Shown one piece after another: positions 3,712 to 18,794 of a DNA stretch of 64,000 nt. The DNA lies in contig NZ_CP016379.1 of NCBI RefSeq assembly GCF_003991135.1, forward strand, positions 2,356,001 to 2,420,000. Direction: 5' to 3'. The notes under the pieces were generated by a model. That model had not been told where the DNA came from. It saw only the letters and a list, made by a program, of their open reading frames with translations, and did not search any database. The stretch is from Anoxybacter fermentans (GTDB lineage Bacteria; Bacillota; Halanaerobiia; DY22613). The position numbers and the translations under genes are program-made. Position 1 is the first letter of the stretch, and each line of letters starts with the position of its first letter.

Positions 3712-4185
3712 TTACCATCCCCATCTTCTACCCATCATACCTGGTCCATAACCCCAGTGACCCCAACCTCCAAATCCTGGCCCATCAGCCTTGAACCAAT
3801 AGGGACAACCATAATAACCGCCTCGCCATATAAAAGGAACCGAATCTCCAAATCTTTCTTTATATACCTTATATCTTTCCTTAAGATACTCTGCCTGTTC
3901 TTTAGTAATCCAACCATCATTTAATTGCTGATCAACCCAGGCATTATACTCTTCTTCTGTCCAACCCTGAGTTCTTCTTTTATACATCTCTAACATATAA
4001 TCAGCCTGCTTCTGGGTCAACCAGCCATCTTCAACCTGATCTTTAAGCCATCTAGCATAATCTTCTTCCGAAAGCGAATTAATAAAACCCCTTAAACCAA
4101 ATCCCCAACCACCAAAGGCAAAGGCAGGTACAGTAATCAGACCTAAAAGAGCCAAAACTACAAGAATCAAAGACACCTTCTTCAT
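3712..4185 (-). CDS. Secreted protein with two EEY-helix repeats
   Basis: A 157-residue exported protein. Residues 1-26 form a signal peptide ending VPAFAFGG. The body carries two similar units, LSEEDYARWLKDQVEDGWL and WTEEEYNAWVDQQLNDGWI, each followed by a helix (QADYMLEMYKRR, QAEYLKERYKVY). The tail is rich in G, W and Y (WGHWGYGPGMMGRRWGW). The arrangement recalls DUF2680-type secreted proteins of Firmicutes, whose function is unknown. The ATG at 4185 lies 8 nt after AAGGAG; the earlier GTG/ATG codons overlap the ribosome site. It is a single-gene unit with a strong terminator. Confidence 0.7.
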   Translation of the reverse strand: MKKVSLILVVLALLGLITVPAFAFGGWGFGLRGFINSLSEEDYARWLKDQVEDGWLTQKQADYMLEMYKRRTQGWTEEEYNAWVDQQLNDGWITKEQAEYLKERYKVYKERFGDSVPFIWRGGYYGCPYWFKADGPGFGGWGHWGYGPGMMGRRWGW

Positions 4186-4277: not shown

Positions 4278-4486
4278 ACTGCAAAAAGCTAATTTTGAGC
4301 GACATAGAAATTTTTCGTCAAATCATCTTAGCGAGATTTCCGACGAAATAAGGCCTCATCACAGGAAGTGATAAGCCAATCAAGGGCCAGGAGGGCCCTT
4401 TGATTAGGAAACCTTATTTCGGCAGAAATCGAGCTTTAGATGATTCGAAAAATTTCTCAAGAAGCGAAAAATTAGCTTTTTGCAGT
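4278..4486. repeat. Long inverted-repeat element, copy 1 (full length, 209 bp)
   Basis: Reference copy of the family. The ends are ACTGCAAAAAGCTAATTTT and its near-perfect inverse AAAATTAGCTTTTTGCAGT. The two arms pair along almost the whole length: inner blocks AAATTTTTCG, ATCATCT, GATTTC, CGAAATAAGG and AATCAAGGGCC each have a matching inverse in the right arm. A small nested hairpin (CATCAC..GTGAT) sits in the left arm near the centre. No open frame of useful length is present. Most copies extend 8 bp outward as ATGATTAA; this one is degenerate there. It separates the minus-strand genes at 3712 and 4534. Confidence 0.9.
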
Positions 4487-10565: not shown

Positions 10566-10654
10566 GCCGAAGTGGTGGAATTGGCAGACGCGCCGGACTC
10601 AAAATCCGGTCTGGGTTAAACCAGGTGTGGGTTCGAATCCCACCTTCGGCACCA
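10566..10654 (+). tRNA. tRNA-Leu(CAA)
   Basis: An 89-nt class II tRNA with encoded CCA. Acceptor stem GCCGAAG/CTTCGGC; anticodon stem CCGGA/TCCGG with loop CTCAAAA gives anticodon CAA; long variable arm CTGGGTTAAACCAG; T arm GTTCGAATC. Confidence 0.95.
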
Positions 10655-10659
10655 TACTT

Positions 10660-10747
10660 GCAGAAGTGGTGGAATGGCAGACACGCTAGCTTGAGGGGCT
10701 AGTGGGCGCTTAAGCCCGTGCGGGTTCAAATCCCGCCTTCTGCACCA
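10660..10747 (+). tRNA. tRNA-Leu(GAG)
   Basis: An 88-nt class II tRNA 5 nt after the previous one, so both come from one transcript. Acceptor GCAGAAG/CTTCTGC; anticodon loop TTGAGGG gives GAG; variable arm TGGGCGCTTAAGCCCG; T arm GTTCAAATC; CCA encoded. Confidence 0.95.
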
Positions 10748-10920: not shown

Positions 10921-11130
10921 TTACCTTAGAATAATATAATCTTTAAAATTCAACTTCTCCCTCTCACAAAATTTCATCAATTCACTTATAAATTTTACAC
11001 CAATACCTCGCTGCCCACGCATTACTCTATATACATATGAATAATCAAGATTAAGATTCCTGGCAAAGATGACCTCATTCCACCCCCGTTCTTTTATCAA
11101 TTCCTTGATCTTATTAATATCTAGCTTCAT
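10921..11130 (-). CDS. Small XRE-family HTH regulator
   Basis: A 69-residue single-domain DNA-binding protein. Helices 2-3 of the HTH are WNEVIFARNLNLDYSYVYRV followed by MRGQRGIGV; the C-terminal helix is FISELMKFCEREKLNFKDYI. It lacks any effector domain. GGGGGG lies 8 nt before the ATG. Upstream, the decamer TTTACTATTT occurs twice (11154-11163 and 11173-11182, 19 bp apart on the plus strand), a candidate autoregulatory site. It is transcribed away from the tandem-HTH gene at 11460. Confidence 0.8.
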   Translation of the reverse strand: MKLDINKIKELIKERGWNEVIFARNLNLDYSYVYRVMRGQRGIGVKFISELMKFCEREKLNFKDYIILR

Positions 11131-11318: not shown

Positions 11319-11409
11319 TATATTAGTAAATATTATTTACATATTGTGTTTTTATTGTAACACTATCTGGATAATTTGTCAAGGAAAATTTACATATTTT
11401 ATATTTTTA

Positions 11410-11438
11410 TTGACATTAATTTAATATTACTATATAAT
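11410..11438 (+). promoter_or_regulatory. Vegetative promoter of tandem-HTH gene 1
   Basis: TTGACA (11410-11415), 17 bp, TATAAT (11433-11438): a perfect sigma-A consensus. The nonamer ATTTACATA occurs upstream at 11335 and 11388 and also in the promoter of the paralog at 13428. Confidence 0.85.
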
Positions 11439-11459
11439 TAATTAAGGGTGACTTGAGCA

Positions 11460-11999
11460 ATGGATTTCAACAATTTTGAGAATAAAAAAATACTAATGGG
11501 AAAGCGTCTGGCCGCTCTTTTAAAAGAACATGATCTGAAGAACAAAGATCTTGCAGAAATACTTAATGTATCAGAATCCTATATTTCAGCATGGAAAAAT
11601 GGTCATCGTTTAATCCCTACCCTATATGTACATAAAATTAGTGAATACTTCGGTGTACCAGTCTCTTATATAATGGGGGAAGATATTGAAGATCATTGTC
11701 AAAAAGCAGGAAAGAAAATTGCTCAGGCCAGAAAATTAAAAGGTATGCAATATATTGACCTGGCAAAAAGGACAGGAATTGCACCAATCAGGTTATCACA
11801 GATTGAGAGAGGAATTATAAAAGCTAAAGCTGAAGAACTTGAAAAAATAGCCAAAGAATTAAATCTAACTGTCGATGAATTAACCATTGATTTTGAAAGT
11901 TGTATTGAGAAAATAAAAAAACTCTGTTTAAAGATGGGTGTTTCTGACGAGAGTATTGAAGCTATTATTCAGCAAATTAAATATGATTTGAGGAAGTAA
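11460..11999 (+). CDS. Tandem-HTH regulator with SinR-like tail (copy 1)
   Basis: A 179-residue cytoplasmic regulator with two XRE HTH domains in series. HTH1 (about 12-70): KNKDLAEILNVSESYISAWK. HTH2 (about 80-140): MQYIDLAKRTGIAPIRLSQI. A tail of about 30 residues (IEKIKKLCLKMGVSDESIEA then IIQQIKYDL) follows the pattern of the SinR/SinI dimerisation helices as I recall them. The paralog at 13428 is about 85 percent identical, including a DNA stretch of some 60 bp identical even at third codon positions, which points to recent duplication or gene conversion. The ribosome site (AAGGGTG) is weak. Converges on the peptide gene. Confidence 0.85.
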   Translation: MDFNNFENKKILMGKRLAALLKEHDLKNKDLAEILNVSESYISAWKNGHRLIPTLYVHKISEYFGVPVSYIMGEDIEDHCQKAGKKIAQARKLKGMQYIDLAKRTGIAPIRLSQIERGIIKAKAEELEKIAKELNLTVDELTIDFESCIEKIKKLCLKMGVSDESIEAIIQQIKYDLRK

Positions 12000-12023
12000 A
12001 AAAAAACCACCCCTAACAGGTGG
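11999..12023 (-). terminator. Terminator of the TPR/peptide operon
   Basis: CCACCTGTTAGGGGTGG stem-loop followed on the minus strand by a run of T, 10 bp past the peptide stop codon. Confidence 0.75.
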
Positions 12024-12033
12024 ATGTGTATCT

Positions 12034-12204
12034 CTATGAATCTCCAGGCCAGGTTGGACCATTTAAAATATTTTTTTCAGAATAACTCAGTTCACTAATC
12101 ATTTGTGAATTGTTATTTATAATATCAGTTGACCAGAAAGAGAAATTTATTATTCCGAATACTCCAATAAGTATAATTAAAAATAACAATATATATTTTT
12201 TCAT
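12034..12204 (-). CDS. Secreted signalling-peptide precursor (56 aa), Phr-like
   Basis: A short gene missed by usual length cut-offs. Its ATG (12204-12202) overlaps the TGA of the TPR gene as ATGA, and GGAGG lies about 12 nt upstream inside the TPR gene, so translation is probably coupled. The product begins MKKYILLFLIILIGVFGI, a charged start plus a hydrophobic signal or anchor (residues 4-19), then a polar linker with INNNSQMISELSYSEK, and ends NGPTWPGDS. That layout (export signal, linker, short proline/tryptophan-rich C-terminus) matches pro-peptides of RRNPP systems such as Phr or PapR. The mature form, processing site and import route are inferred, not shown. No other family is suggested. 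Confidence 0.7.
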   Translation of the reverse strand: MKKYILLFLIILIGVFGIINFSFWSTDIINNNSQMISELSYSEKNILNGPTWPGDS

Positions 12205-13115
12205 ATTTCCTTAACCTCCTCCATCATTGAACTTACATAAAGATCATGTTCAGCTTTATATTTTGCTGCTCTTTCAATATCTGTCTCCAAATCCCCCAAT
12301 ATATACGCTACCTCTGCTAATTCAAGAAGTAAATCCTTTTCTTTAAAAATTGACCTTGCCTGTTTAAGATAAAAATAAGCTTTATGATAATCCCCCTGTT
12401 CTTTGTAACATATGCCCCGTACCTTTAAATTTTCTCCTAATTCAATCTCATGATTTCCCTCTAAAATTATCTTATATGATTCATCCAGTCGTTCATGTGC
12501 CTCCTTAAAATTACCGACCTTTACTAATGACAAAGCTATACCATTTAATGAACAGGATTTCAATTGTCCTTCAAACACATCTATTGCTTTTTGATAAAAT
12601 TCTATTGCTCTATAATGATCATTTAAAGCCTGATAAACTTCTGCAATACTATTGTTCAATTTTGCTATATCAATTAAAGATAATCCTCTAACATTTGCTT
12701 CTTCAAATTCCTTTAATGCTTTTTCAAGAAATTTTTTGTTATCATTCATTTTCCCTATTCTACTATAAATTATACCTCTCCCCAAATGTCCCGCATATAC
12801 CCACTGCGGATTATTCATCTGAATTAATTCATTATAACAGGAAATAGCTTGTTTATTCTTCCCCATCTTCCCATAGCTATTTCCTAAAAATTGAGTCAAT
12901 TCAGCATAATTATCTCCCTCATTAATAGTTCTTGCCCACTTCAGTTTTATTATCGCTCTTTCCAATAAATTTAATTGATAATATGATAACGCTATTAACT
13001 TTGCCGCTTCAGGATTTTGCGTTTTAGCAAATGCAATAATCGAATTTTCAAGGGAATCATAATAATTCCTGGCTTCAAAAGCTTCTTTAGCTAAAACCAG
13101 TTCATCACTACACAT
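12201..13115 (-). CDS. TPR-repeat protein, candidate peptide receptor (Rap-like)
   Basis: A 304-residue, all-helical protein made of about seven tetratricopeptide-like repeats, for example AELTQFLGNSYGKMGKNKQA, LNNSIAEVYQALNDHYRAIE and ENLKVRGICYKEQGDYHKAY. No HTH, enzyme motif, signal or membrane segment is present, so it resembles the peptide-binding part of Rap/NprR/PlcR proteins without the DNA-binding domain. The start at 13115 has GGGAGG 8 nt upstream; an in-frame ATG at 13136 has no clear site. The downstream gene encodes a secreted peptide and overlaps by 4 bp. It is divergent from, and between, two tandem-HTH regulators, which are the obvious candidate partners (inference). Confidence 0.8.
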   Translation of the reverse strand: MCSDELVLAKEAFEARNYYDSLENSIIAFAKTQNPEAAKLIALSYYQLNLLERAIIKLKWARTINEGDNYAELTQFLGNSYGKMGKNKQAISCYNELIQMNNPQWVYAGHLGRGIIYSRIGKMNDNKKFLEKALKEFEEANVRGLSLIDIAKLNNSIAEVYQALNDHYRAIEFYQKAIDVFEGQLKSCSLNGIALSLVKVGNFKEAHERLDESYKIILEGNHEIELGENLKVRGICYKEQGDYHKAYFYLKQARSIFKEKDLLLELAEVAYILGDLETDIERAAKYKAEHDLYVSSMMEEVKEI

Positions 13116-13172
13116 CTTCCAGTCCTCCCATTCCATTCTACCCCTTTTTTAAATTATACCTTCCCTTTCCAT

Positions 13173-13201
13173 ATAATATCATAATTATTGTATGATGTCA
13201 A
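13173..13201 (-). promoter_or_regulatory. Promoter of the TPR/peptide operon with internal inverted repeat
   Basis: On the minus strand TTGACA (13201-13196), 17 bp, TATTAT (13178-13173). The spacer is filled by a perfect inverted repeat ATCATA-N7-TATGAT (13178-13196), well placed for a repressor to block RNA polymerase. Confidence 0.75.
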
Positions 13202-13291
13202 TAAATTTTGCTTCTGTATTAATTTGTTAATATTTATAAAGTTAATTATTCATTTAGTTTTATTGCTATTTTATGATTAATTTATACTATA

Positions 13292-13324
13292 TTATGTAAA
13301 ATATTACAAAAATCATTTACATAA
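13292..13324. promoter_or_regulatory. 9-bp inverted repeat between divergent promoters
   Basis: TTATGTAAA (13292-13300) and TTTACATAA (13316-13324) are a perfect inverted pair with a 15-bp spacer, midway between the two divergent promoters. It contains one of the ATTTACATA words shared with the 11460 promoter. Candidate operator for the tandem-HTH proteins; the AT-rich setting lowers certainty. Confidence 0.45.
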
Positions 13325-13369
13325 AATATTATACAACTAGACTTTAAATTAATATATGTTAAATTTTTA

Positions 13370-13398
13370 TTGACCCTGGTTAAAAAGTTTTATATAAT
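13370..13398 (+). promoter_or_regulatory. Vegetative promoter of tandem-HTH gene 2
   Basis: TTGACC (13370-13375), 17 bp, TATAAT (13393-13398). As in copy 1, the -35 is preceded by TTTTTA and an ATTTACATA word overlaps or lies near it (13397). Confidence 0.8.
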
Positions 13399-13427
13399 TT
13401 ACATATAGAGAAGGAGGCTTTAAACAA

Positions 13428-13970
13428 ATGGATTATGACAATCTTAAAGATAAGAAAAAACTAATGGGAGAACGGCTTGCTTTTCTCTTAAAAGAGCATA
13501 ATATAAAAAATAAAGAATTGGCAAAAATACTCAACGTATCAGAATCCTATATTTCAGCATGGAAAAATGGTCATCGTTTAATCCCTACCCTATATATACA
13601 TAAAATTAGTGAATACTTCGGTGTACCAGTCTCCTATCTAATGGGAGAAGATATTGAAAACCATTGGCAAAAAATTGGAAAGAAAATCGCTAAGGCCAGA
13701 AAATTAAAGAATATGCAATATATTGACCTGGCAAAAAAGACTGGAATTGCACCAATCAGGTTATCACAGATTGAAAGGGGAATTATAAAAGCTAAAGCTG
13801 AAGAACTTGAAAAAATCGCCGAAGAGTTAAATTTAACTGTTGATGAATTAACCATCGATTTTGAAAGTTGCATTGAAGAAATAAAAAAACTCTGTGTAAA
13901 AATAGGAGTTTCTGATGAAAGTATCGAAGCTATTATTCAACAAATAAAATTTGATATAGAAATGTACTAA
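13428..13970 (+). CDS. Tandem-HTH regulator with SinR-like tail (copy 2)
   Basis: A 180-residue paralog of the regulator at 11460. The first recognition helix region (SESYISAWKNGHRLIPTLY) is identical in the two, so both should recognise the same DNA words through HTH1; HTH2 (LAKKTGIAPIRLSQIERG) is also almost identical. Differences cluster at the N-terminus and in the last 25 residues (IEEIKKLCVKIGVSDESIEA), where dimer or partner choice would lie. GGAGG lies 11 nt before the ATG. It is divergent from the TPR/peptide operon and shares its 300-bp control region. Confidence 0.85.
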   Translation: MDYDNLKDKKKLMGERLAFLLKEHNIKNKELAKILNVSESYISAWKNGHRLIPTLYIHKISEYFGVPVSYLMGEDIENHWQKIGKKIAKARKLKNMQYIDLAKKTGIAPIRLSQIERGIIKAKAEELEKIAEELNLTVDELTIDFESCIEEIKKLCVKIGVSDESIEAIIQQIKFDIEMY

Positions 13971-18032: not shown

Positions 18033-18241
18033 ACTGCAAAAAGCTAATTTTGAGCGCCATAGAAATTTTTCGTTAAACCATCTTAGTAAGATTTCAGTCG
18101 AAATAAGGCCTCATCACAGGATGTGATGAGCTAATCAAGGGCCAGGAGGGCTCATTGATTAGTATGCCTTATTTCGACTGAAATCGAACTTTAGATGGTT
18201 CGAAAAATTTCTCTCGAAGCGAAAAATTAGCTTTTTGCAGT
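18033..18241. repeat. Long inverted-repeat element, copy 3 (full length, 209 bp)
   Basis: Carries the nested hairpin CATCACA-GGA-TGTGATG in its clearest form. It fills the space directly upstream of the tandem-HTH gene at 18273, ending 31 bp before the start codon, so this gene lacks the consensus promoter seen for its four paralogs. Confidence 0.9.
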
Positions 18242-18272: not shown

Positions 18273-18794
18273 ATGAAAGAGTTAAAAATATTAGGGCGAA
18301 ACTTATATCATTTTAGAAAGAAAAACAATCTTTCATACCAGGCCATCGCCAATGCCCTTGGTTTATCTGCTGCTCATGTATGTCGTATCGAAAAAGGAAC
18401 TGCTAAACCTTCCTTTGATGTAATGATAAATTTATCTCAACTGATGAATGTCCCTCTCTATTACCTTTTTCTAGATTTCGGTAATTGTGTAGATTTTACC
18501 AATTTCATCACATCAGTTAAAGATAAAATGAAAACTTTAAATTGGTCACTGGAAACTTTATCTAAAAAAACAGGAATAAATATTTTTAAAATGCTGGATA
18601 TAATCCATGAAAAAATCCAACCCACCCAAGAAGAGATTACCGCTCTTGCTAATATTTTAGGACTACCTATTCCCGATATGCCTACAAATCAAAGATTAAG
18701 TTTACTGGAAAGAATTTTAGAAGATTTAGGCCTGGATAGGGCTCAAATTCGAAATATAATTGATTATGTGAAGTTAGTTATGAAAAAAGATTAA
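18273..18794 (+). CDS. Tandem-HTH regulator with SinR-like tail (copy 3)
   Basis: A 173-residue divergent paralog. HTH1 (about 8-65): NNLSYQAIANALGLSAAHVC then RIEKGTAKPSFDVM. HTH2 (about 85-130) is less typical: LNWSLETLSKKTGINIFKML. The tail SLLERILEDLGLDRAQIRNI then IDYVKLVMKK keeps the family pattern. AAAGGGAG lies 7 nt before the ATG. The upstream space is occupied by the inverted-repeat element, so transcription may start in or be altered by it. No neighbour on the same strand follows. Confidence 0.82.
   Translation: MKELKILGRNLYHFRKKNNLSYQAIANALGLSAAHVCRIEKGTAKPSFDVMINLSQLMNVPLYYLFLDFGNCVDFTNFITSVKDKMKTLNWSLETLSKKTGINIFKMLDIIHEKIQPTQEEITALANILGLPIPDMPTNQRLSLLERILEDLGLDRAQIRNIIDYVKLVMKKD

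Follow-up and report, generated by a model that had tools for sequence, protein, structure and literature searches.

Among the described systems, one of the closest to the locus reported here is RappLS20-Phr*pLS20-RcopLS20 of plasmid pLS20, which joins a receptor of tetratricopeptide repeats (TPR) without a helix-turn-helix (HTH) domain, a short secreted propeptide and an XRE-type repressor (PMC7430634, PMC9986798). RappLS20 binds the repressor Rco directly, and the Phr peptide releases Rco (PMC7430634). We analyzed a 64,000-nucleotide stretch of Anoxybacter fermentans DNA (contig NZ_CP016379.1, positions 2,356,001 to 2,420,000; hereafter, the window) that carries an HTH-less TPR gene, an overlapping 56-codon open reading frame (ORF) for a putative propeptide and two genes for tandem-HTH (HTH-HTH) regulators. 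As in pLS20, XRE genes adjoin the receptor gene, since the two HTH-HTH genes flank it. On the other hand, Rco combines a single N-terminal HTH with a p53-like tetramerisation domain, whereas the window has two near-identical regulators with two HTH domains each; direct receptor–repressor binding is established for RappLS20 and only predicted here; and, unlike in the pLS20 system, no conjugation genes were seen in the stretch examined.

A second precedent comes from a fitting lineage. An HTH-less RRNPPA candidate obtained with RRNPP_detector has been named "subfamily 17 of Anoxybacter fermentans" (Moi et al. 2025, PMC12700828), and it comprises HTH-less TPR receptors with adjacent propeptides. 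The window receptor probably belongs to the same receptor family, and the receptor/propeptide pair had probably been predicted already by RRNPP_detector (PMC10075063). In the available text of that first paper, the subfamily is only named and its HTH loss inferred; HTH-HTH partners, a peptide motif and leaderless forms are not described. The original prediction held that a receptor/peptide pair acting on tandem-HTH proteins was not a described arrangement, which was too strong a statement given RappLS20/Rco and this named subfamily. Dense repertoires have a precedent in the Alo systems of Paenibacillaceae, with up to 40 paralogous receptors and downstream propeptides per genome, some receptors lacking a peptide (PMC7425212). 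However, the lineage differs, and AloR has an HTH-TPR architecture (PMC12700828), so that Alo receptors can act directly on DNA, whereas the window receptor is HTH-less. Thus, Rap action on a repressor, an HTH-less subfamily in A. fermentans, dense repertoires, an active Pro/Trp heptamer and leaderless signals were already known. What is new is the split receptor/tandem-HTH arrangement with its satellite genes, its amplification and a second genus with a larger set, together with an acidic Pro/Asp peptide class that has matched orthologous cores and repeat and leaderless forms.

How could an RRNPP receptor, once its DNA-binding domain is lost, keep control of transcription through a separate repressor? 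The locus offers a case for this question. Overall, we regard it as likely that it encodes a split-form RRNPP-type cell–cell signalling unit whose receptor controls XRE regulators in trans. The 56-aa propeptide would be exported and trimmed to a short peptide around GPTWPGD, acidic and with Pro, Trp and Asp. An Opp-type transporter would re-import the mature peptide (the genome has nine Opp-type binding proteins), which would then bind to the HTH-less TPR receptor in its groove. We infer export, maturation, import and receptor binding from established RRNPP biology. On the model of RappLS20 acting on Rco, the apo-receptor would bind the adjacent tandem-HTH (XRE) regulator, and the peptide would change this binding. 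The HTH-HTH regulators, in turn, would govern not only their own promoters but also the TPR operon and a divergent satellite gene, here one that encodes a 69-aa single-HTH protein. The anatomy, conservation and linkage of these genes can be read from the DNA. They make a receptor/propeptide pair very probable and the XRE regulators fairly likely to be its partner in trans; an anti-repressor sign, which follows the pLS20 analogy, is put forward tentatively. With slightly less than even confidence, we further propose a split RRNPP architecture in which HTH-less receptors control dedicated tandem-HTH regulators and satellites in trans. In one bacterial family, each genome would hold 13 to 30 such parallel private channels, and their acidic Pro/Asp pheromones would come from three kinds of precursor: signal-bearing, motif-repeat and leaderless.

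The TPR gene, its short ORF and their family

The operon has the following features.

12201-13136, minus strand: HTH-less, RRNPP-type TPR receptor gene (Pfam TPR)
12034-12204, minus strand: gene for the 56-aa putative propeptide, with a signal/hydrophobic N-terminus and a putative pheromone region near the C-terminal NGPTWPGDS
12007-12023, minus strand: intrinsic terminator of the TPR-propeptide operon, just past the short-ORF stop
13173-13201, minus strand: operon promoter, TTGACA-17-TATTAT with an extended -10, 11/12 consensus matches

The short ORF overlaps the 3' end of the TPR gene by ATGA, as had been predicted for a TPR gene at 12201-13115. The TPR gene may start at the first ATG (13136; 311 aa) or at the second (13115; 304 aa), the start chosen in that prediction, which has the better-spaced Shine-Dalgarno sequence. 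The 56-codon ORF has its own Shine-Dalgarno sequence, AGGAGG, upstream, and the hydrophobic segment of its product has a mean hydropathy of 3.55. The terminator (12023-12007) consists of a short stem, with a fold z-score of only -1.15, followed by a U9 tract.

The TPR protein matched Pfam TPR_12 (2.3e-19) and further TPR models. Pfam gave no HTH domain, in agreement with the predicted lack of a DNA-binding domain, and no hydrophobic N-terminus was found. For neither the TPR protein nor the peptide was there an NCBIfam model above the curated cut-off or an informative PHROG match. When PDB sequences were searched with this protein's profile, generic TPR proteins alone came up, with no Rap among the 60 matches listed. 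The AlphaFold2 (AF2) model, made from single-sequence input, was all-helical and weak (pLDDT 61); RapI (4i1a) ranked 23rd among its generic TPR fold matches. At 304-311 aa, the protein compares with about 380 aa for Rap proteins, which have a three-helix N-terminal domain and a TPR domain. Because the model was too weak, neither a Rap-type or PlcR-type placement nor a Rap-specific fold was reached.

By profile search, the genome has 13 full-length TPR paralogues and the sister genus 27 (27-30 overall), the sister genome being the one further member of the family in the set of relatives searched. At the same threshold, no family match was found in 59 other relatives, and 398 genomes drawn across the phylum gave one distant match (locus L135). 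Relatives drawn from genome contigs gave generic TPR matches in metagenome-assembled genomes only and were left unused. Among the 43 family TPR genes of the two genomes, 24 had a strictly defined signal-bearing ORF at the 3' end compared with 1/167 other genes of the same loci (Fisher p=8e-19), and the sole exception is itself a propeptide, located between an XRE gene and a family TPR gene, just upstream of the latter. When the criteria were relaxed and propeptides that precede the TPR gene (L097, L111 and L114) were counted, the number rose to 29/43. These results strongly support the receptor/propeptide reading: a signal-bearing short ORF with a variable C-terminus is kept beside orthologous and paralogous TPR genes, which is the pattern that the original prediction had proposed to look for.

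The window system would be one private signalling channel among about a dozen in this genome, and the nearest relative has about thirty. Such dense peptide communication (13 receptor genes here; about 30 in the relative) would occur in a lineage for which the literature searched gave only one passing mention of systems of this kind. At L107:5818-10954, five family TPR genes lie head-to-tail with a propeptide after the first one only; orphan receptors or tandem amplification are both possible.

Tandem-HTH regulators as candidate partners

On either side of the operon lie the two regulators, their promoters and a recurring word that is a candidate operator.

11460-11999, plus strand: HTH-HTH regulator 1, convergent with the operon (Pfam HTH_3 twice)
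13428-13970, plus strand: HTH-HTH regulator 2, divergent from the operon (Pfam HTH_3 twice)
11410-11438, plus strand: regulator 1 promoter, TTGACA-17-TATAAT, 12/12 consensus
13370-13398, plus strand: regulator 2 promoter, TTGACC-17-TATAAT, 11/12 consensus
11335-11343, plus strand: candidate operator ATTTACATA, copy 1, upstream of regulator 1
11388-11396, plus strand: candidate operator ATTTACATA, copy 2, just upstream of the regulator 1 -35
13315-13323, plus strand: candidate operator ATTTACATA, copy 3, between the TPR promoter and regulator 2
13397-13405, plus strand: candidate operator ATTTACATA, copy 4, at the regulator 2 transcription start

The prediction of near-identical regulators, each with its own promoter, thus held, with 84% protein and 86% DNA identity. 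The stretch coding for the first recognition helix is 98% identical, and therefore the two regulators probably recognize the same operator. The candidate word occurs six times in the 64 kb, four of these in the upstream regions of the two regulators (local Markov p about 0.003, with the choice of word allowed for). The AF2 model of the HTH-HTH family (pLDDT 83) had SinR (PDB 1b0n) as its top fold match, SinR was also among the best profile matches, and it is the best structural match to one HTH domain of the window regulators (PDB 1b0n, 3zkc). Their description as "SinR-like" is accurate for the HTH fold but not for the architecture: SinR, with its single HTH, has SinI rather than a TPR protein as its antagonist, whereas the window regulators have two HTH_3 domains and a C-terminal helical pair, unlike the SinI-type multimerisation domain. 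In the tree, twin HTH-HTH genes group by locus (the window pair; the L029 pair), which suggests local duplication or gene conversion. A further gene of the same family lies at 18273-18794 of the window, about 4 kb off the cassette, without a TPR neighbour and adjoining a dispersed repeat.

Are these regulators the targets of the receptor? The strongest alternative is a genuine RRNPP pair with another target, such as a response regulator or a phosphorelay protein, beside HTH-HTH genes that are merely independent neighbours, for example, the relic of a mobile switch. Typical targets of the Rap subfamily are Spo0F~P and DNA-binding proteins such as ComA. Many Rap proteins do act on response regulators (PMC7430634), and most TPR-peptide pairs of the sister genome, the orthologue of the window receptor included, have no XRE neighbour. 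However, the HTH-HTH genes are clustered: in the A. fermentans genome, 9/16 of them are no farther than 1 kb from a family TPR gene, although only 1.3% of the genome qualifies (p=9e-14), and this clustering covers six loci. A convergent HTH-HTH gene stands downstream of the TPR operon in the window and at L028, L029, L031, L038, L101 and L107, and a divergent one upstream in the window and at L028 and L029. Two further observations argue against another target, namely the correlated divergence of TPR and HTH proteins (distances at eight loci, r=0.53, permutation p=0.014) and the retention of a three-gene unit between genera, as L028 and L101 share a TPR gene, the core of its peptide and a convergent HTH-HTH gene but no other neighbour. 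The association also recurs in other forms. At L111 and L114, a single-HTH XRE gene, a propeptide and a TPR gene follow one another in that different order. In L135, the nearest relative outside the family, HTH and TPR are fused in one protein (RNPP_C similarity 9.8e-13), followed by a 64-aa signal-bearing ORF ending in a GPIDPPDYPPG-type region; L135 is thus a fused counterpart of the split arrangement. We consequently regard another target as unlikely, though it remains the most serious competitor.

Several observations weigh against control of tandem-HTH regulators by the receptor. Only 2/12 HTH-HTH genes of the sister genome lie near a TPR gene (p=0.02), and 7/13 TPR paralogues in the A. 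fermentans genome have no HTH neighbour. Within the roughly 4 kb searched on each side of L104, the orthologue of the window receptor, there is no HTH-HTH gene, and L100, the orthologue of L038, has no HTH-HTH neighbour either. Several TPR paralogues lack a recognizable peptide (L035, L096, L093, L105 and the tandem copies in L107), and the TPR model is too weak to show a Rap-specific fold. We rejected the HTH-HTH gene as an obligatory partner, as it is absent beside L104 and L100; the link between receptor and HTH-HTH gene is frequent, not obligatory. The predicted action of the receptor on tandem-HTH proteins is backed by genome context only, and L104 and most copies in the sister genus have no HTH-HTH gene beside them.

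Peptide chemistry and precursor forms

In the other genus, the orthologue of the window receptor (L104; 40% identity) is accompanied by a 57-aa ORF whose core is GPNWPPDD, compared with GPTWPGD in the window, the predicted mature ends being EGPNWPPDD and NGPTWPGDS. Those of the orthologues L028/L101 are NPNWADEPD and DPVWDDEPD, and those of L033/L095 are GPIEQP repeats and GPIQKPV..GPIQRPV; CGPWPDPDTDG and TTSNWPGFSED also occur in the family. The mature parts are short, acidic and Pro/Asp-rich (30 propeptides: Pro 12.4% vs. 3.1%, Asp 10.7% vs. 5.3%, Lys+Arg 2.3% vs. 12.4%). The C-terminal part varies among paralogues and is matched between orthologues, and the peptides of orthologous receptors were mutual best matches among 21 candidates in 4/6 pairs (p=4e-4). 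The orthologous and paralogous receptor/peptide pairs form a natural series for reading the recognition code. A similar short P/W peptide is known from the Qsr/Qsp systems of Clostridium acetobutylicum, where AEPTWGW of QspB7 is an active RRNPP heptamer that has PTW in common with NGPTWPGDS; on the other hand, the Qsr receptors carry their own HTH, whereas the window receptor has none (PMC7376267).

The precursors take several forms. In many copies, the hydrophobic part ends in a typical signal-peptidase context (VLADP, AFADP, VFANP). A 104-aa propeptide at L033:3745-4059, adjoining a family TPR gene, has a signal sequence followed by about eight near-repeats of GPIEQPMELD, and GPIQ[KR]PV occurs twice in its orthologue L095. 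The orthologous receptors L034 and L094 (64% identical) have, instead of a signal-bearing ORF, leaderless ORFs of 12 and 13 codons, MRRITGPGLDED and MRRNGPGWDDSDL, respectively, in a conserved gene neighbourhood.

L034, about 4352-4390, and L094, about 4008-4050: leaderless mini-ORFs with ribosome-binding sites, between the TPR gene and a terminator-like inverted repeat

They resemble the leaderless communication peptides (LCPs) of RopB, which are encoded by receptor-linked mini-ORFs of about 8-13 codons without a signal; however, LCPs are hydrophobic, whereas the L034/L094 peptides start with MRR and are acidic at the C-terminus (PMC10518010). This conserved pair is relevant to the question of how peptides without a signal get out of the cell. 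Leaderless ORFs at L032 and L117 are unproven, that of L032 being absent from its 67%-identical orthologue L093, and L034/L094 alone are supported.

Could the 56-aa product instead stay in the membrane as a small protein and anchor the TPR protein there or regulate it, with no pheromone released? Its strongly hydrophobic segment and the absence of a clear signal-peptidase site in the window copy would suit such a role. However, across the precursors, the conserved element is the motif and not the hydrophobic segment: the P/D/W motif after that segment is the part conserved in paralogues, and it is made with a signal (in many copies with the typical cleavage context), as repeats in L033 and, in L034 and L094, with no hydrophobic segment at all, which speaks against an anchor and makes this role improbable. 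As for a short frame that arose by chance beside an unrelated housekeeping TPR gene, AT-rich DNA readily gives short ORFs, but the 24/43 vs. 1/167 contrast, which rules this out at the family level, the core motif kept in L104 and the placement of the ribosome-binding site and terminator leave it a negligible probability.

Satellite genes and a dispersed element

The satellite genes, i.e., small genes that accompany the TPR/HTH loci, are as follows.

10921-11130, minus strand: 69-aa single-HTH gene, probable Cro-like satellite, divergent from regulator 1
L030:4406-4678; L031:2049-2321; L038:1745-2107; L150:1492-1773: 90-aa protein family

The 69-aa gene has homologues in the same place at the paralogous locus L029 (63% identity) and at L107 of the other genus (58%), again divergent from the corresponding HTH-HTH regulator. 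The 90-aa protein, which has no Pfam match, has four copies in the A. fermentans genome, all at TPR/HTH loci (L029, L030, L031 and L038); its gene is divergent from an HTH-HTH gene in three of the four copies and downstream of a small HTH gene in the fourth. The satellites would be natural first targets of the HTH-HTH regulators. The small HTH gene is also found next to XRE genes that lack a TPR neighbour and amid phage-like genes, so a phage-type cI/cro pair may be the origin of the switch.

Just beyond the 69-aa gene are two tandem tRNA-Leu genes (CAA, GAG; 10566-10747). The window also contains ten copies, all on the plus strand, of a dispersed element of roughly 215 bp with terminal inverted repeats CTGCAAAAAGCTAATTTT...AAAATTAGCTTTTTGCAG; one example is at 18035-18240, and the others are near 4282, 27003, 28336, 32430, 39946, 40584, 45542, 49021 and 60681. 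Its core has 444 matches in the 3.56-Mb genome and 0 in a reversed control. Among the exact copies listed, all are on the plus strand in 0-1.73 Mb and most are on the minus strand in 3.0-3.5 Mb, a strong orientation bias.

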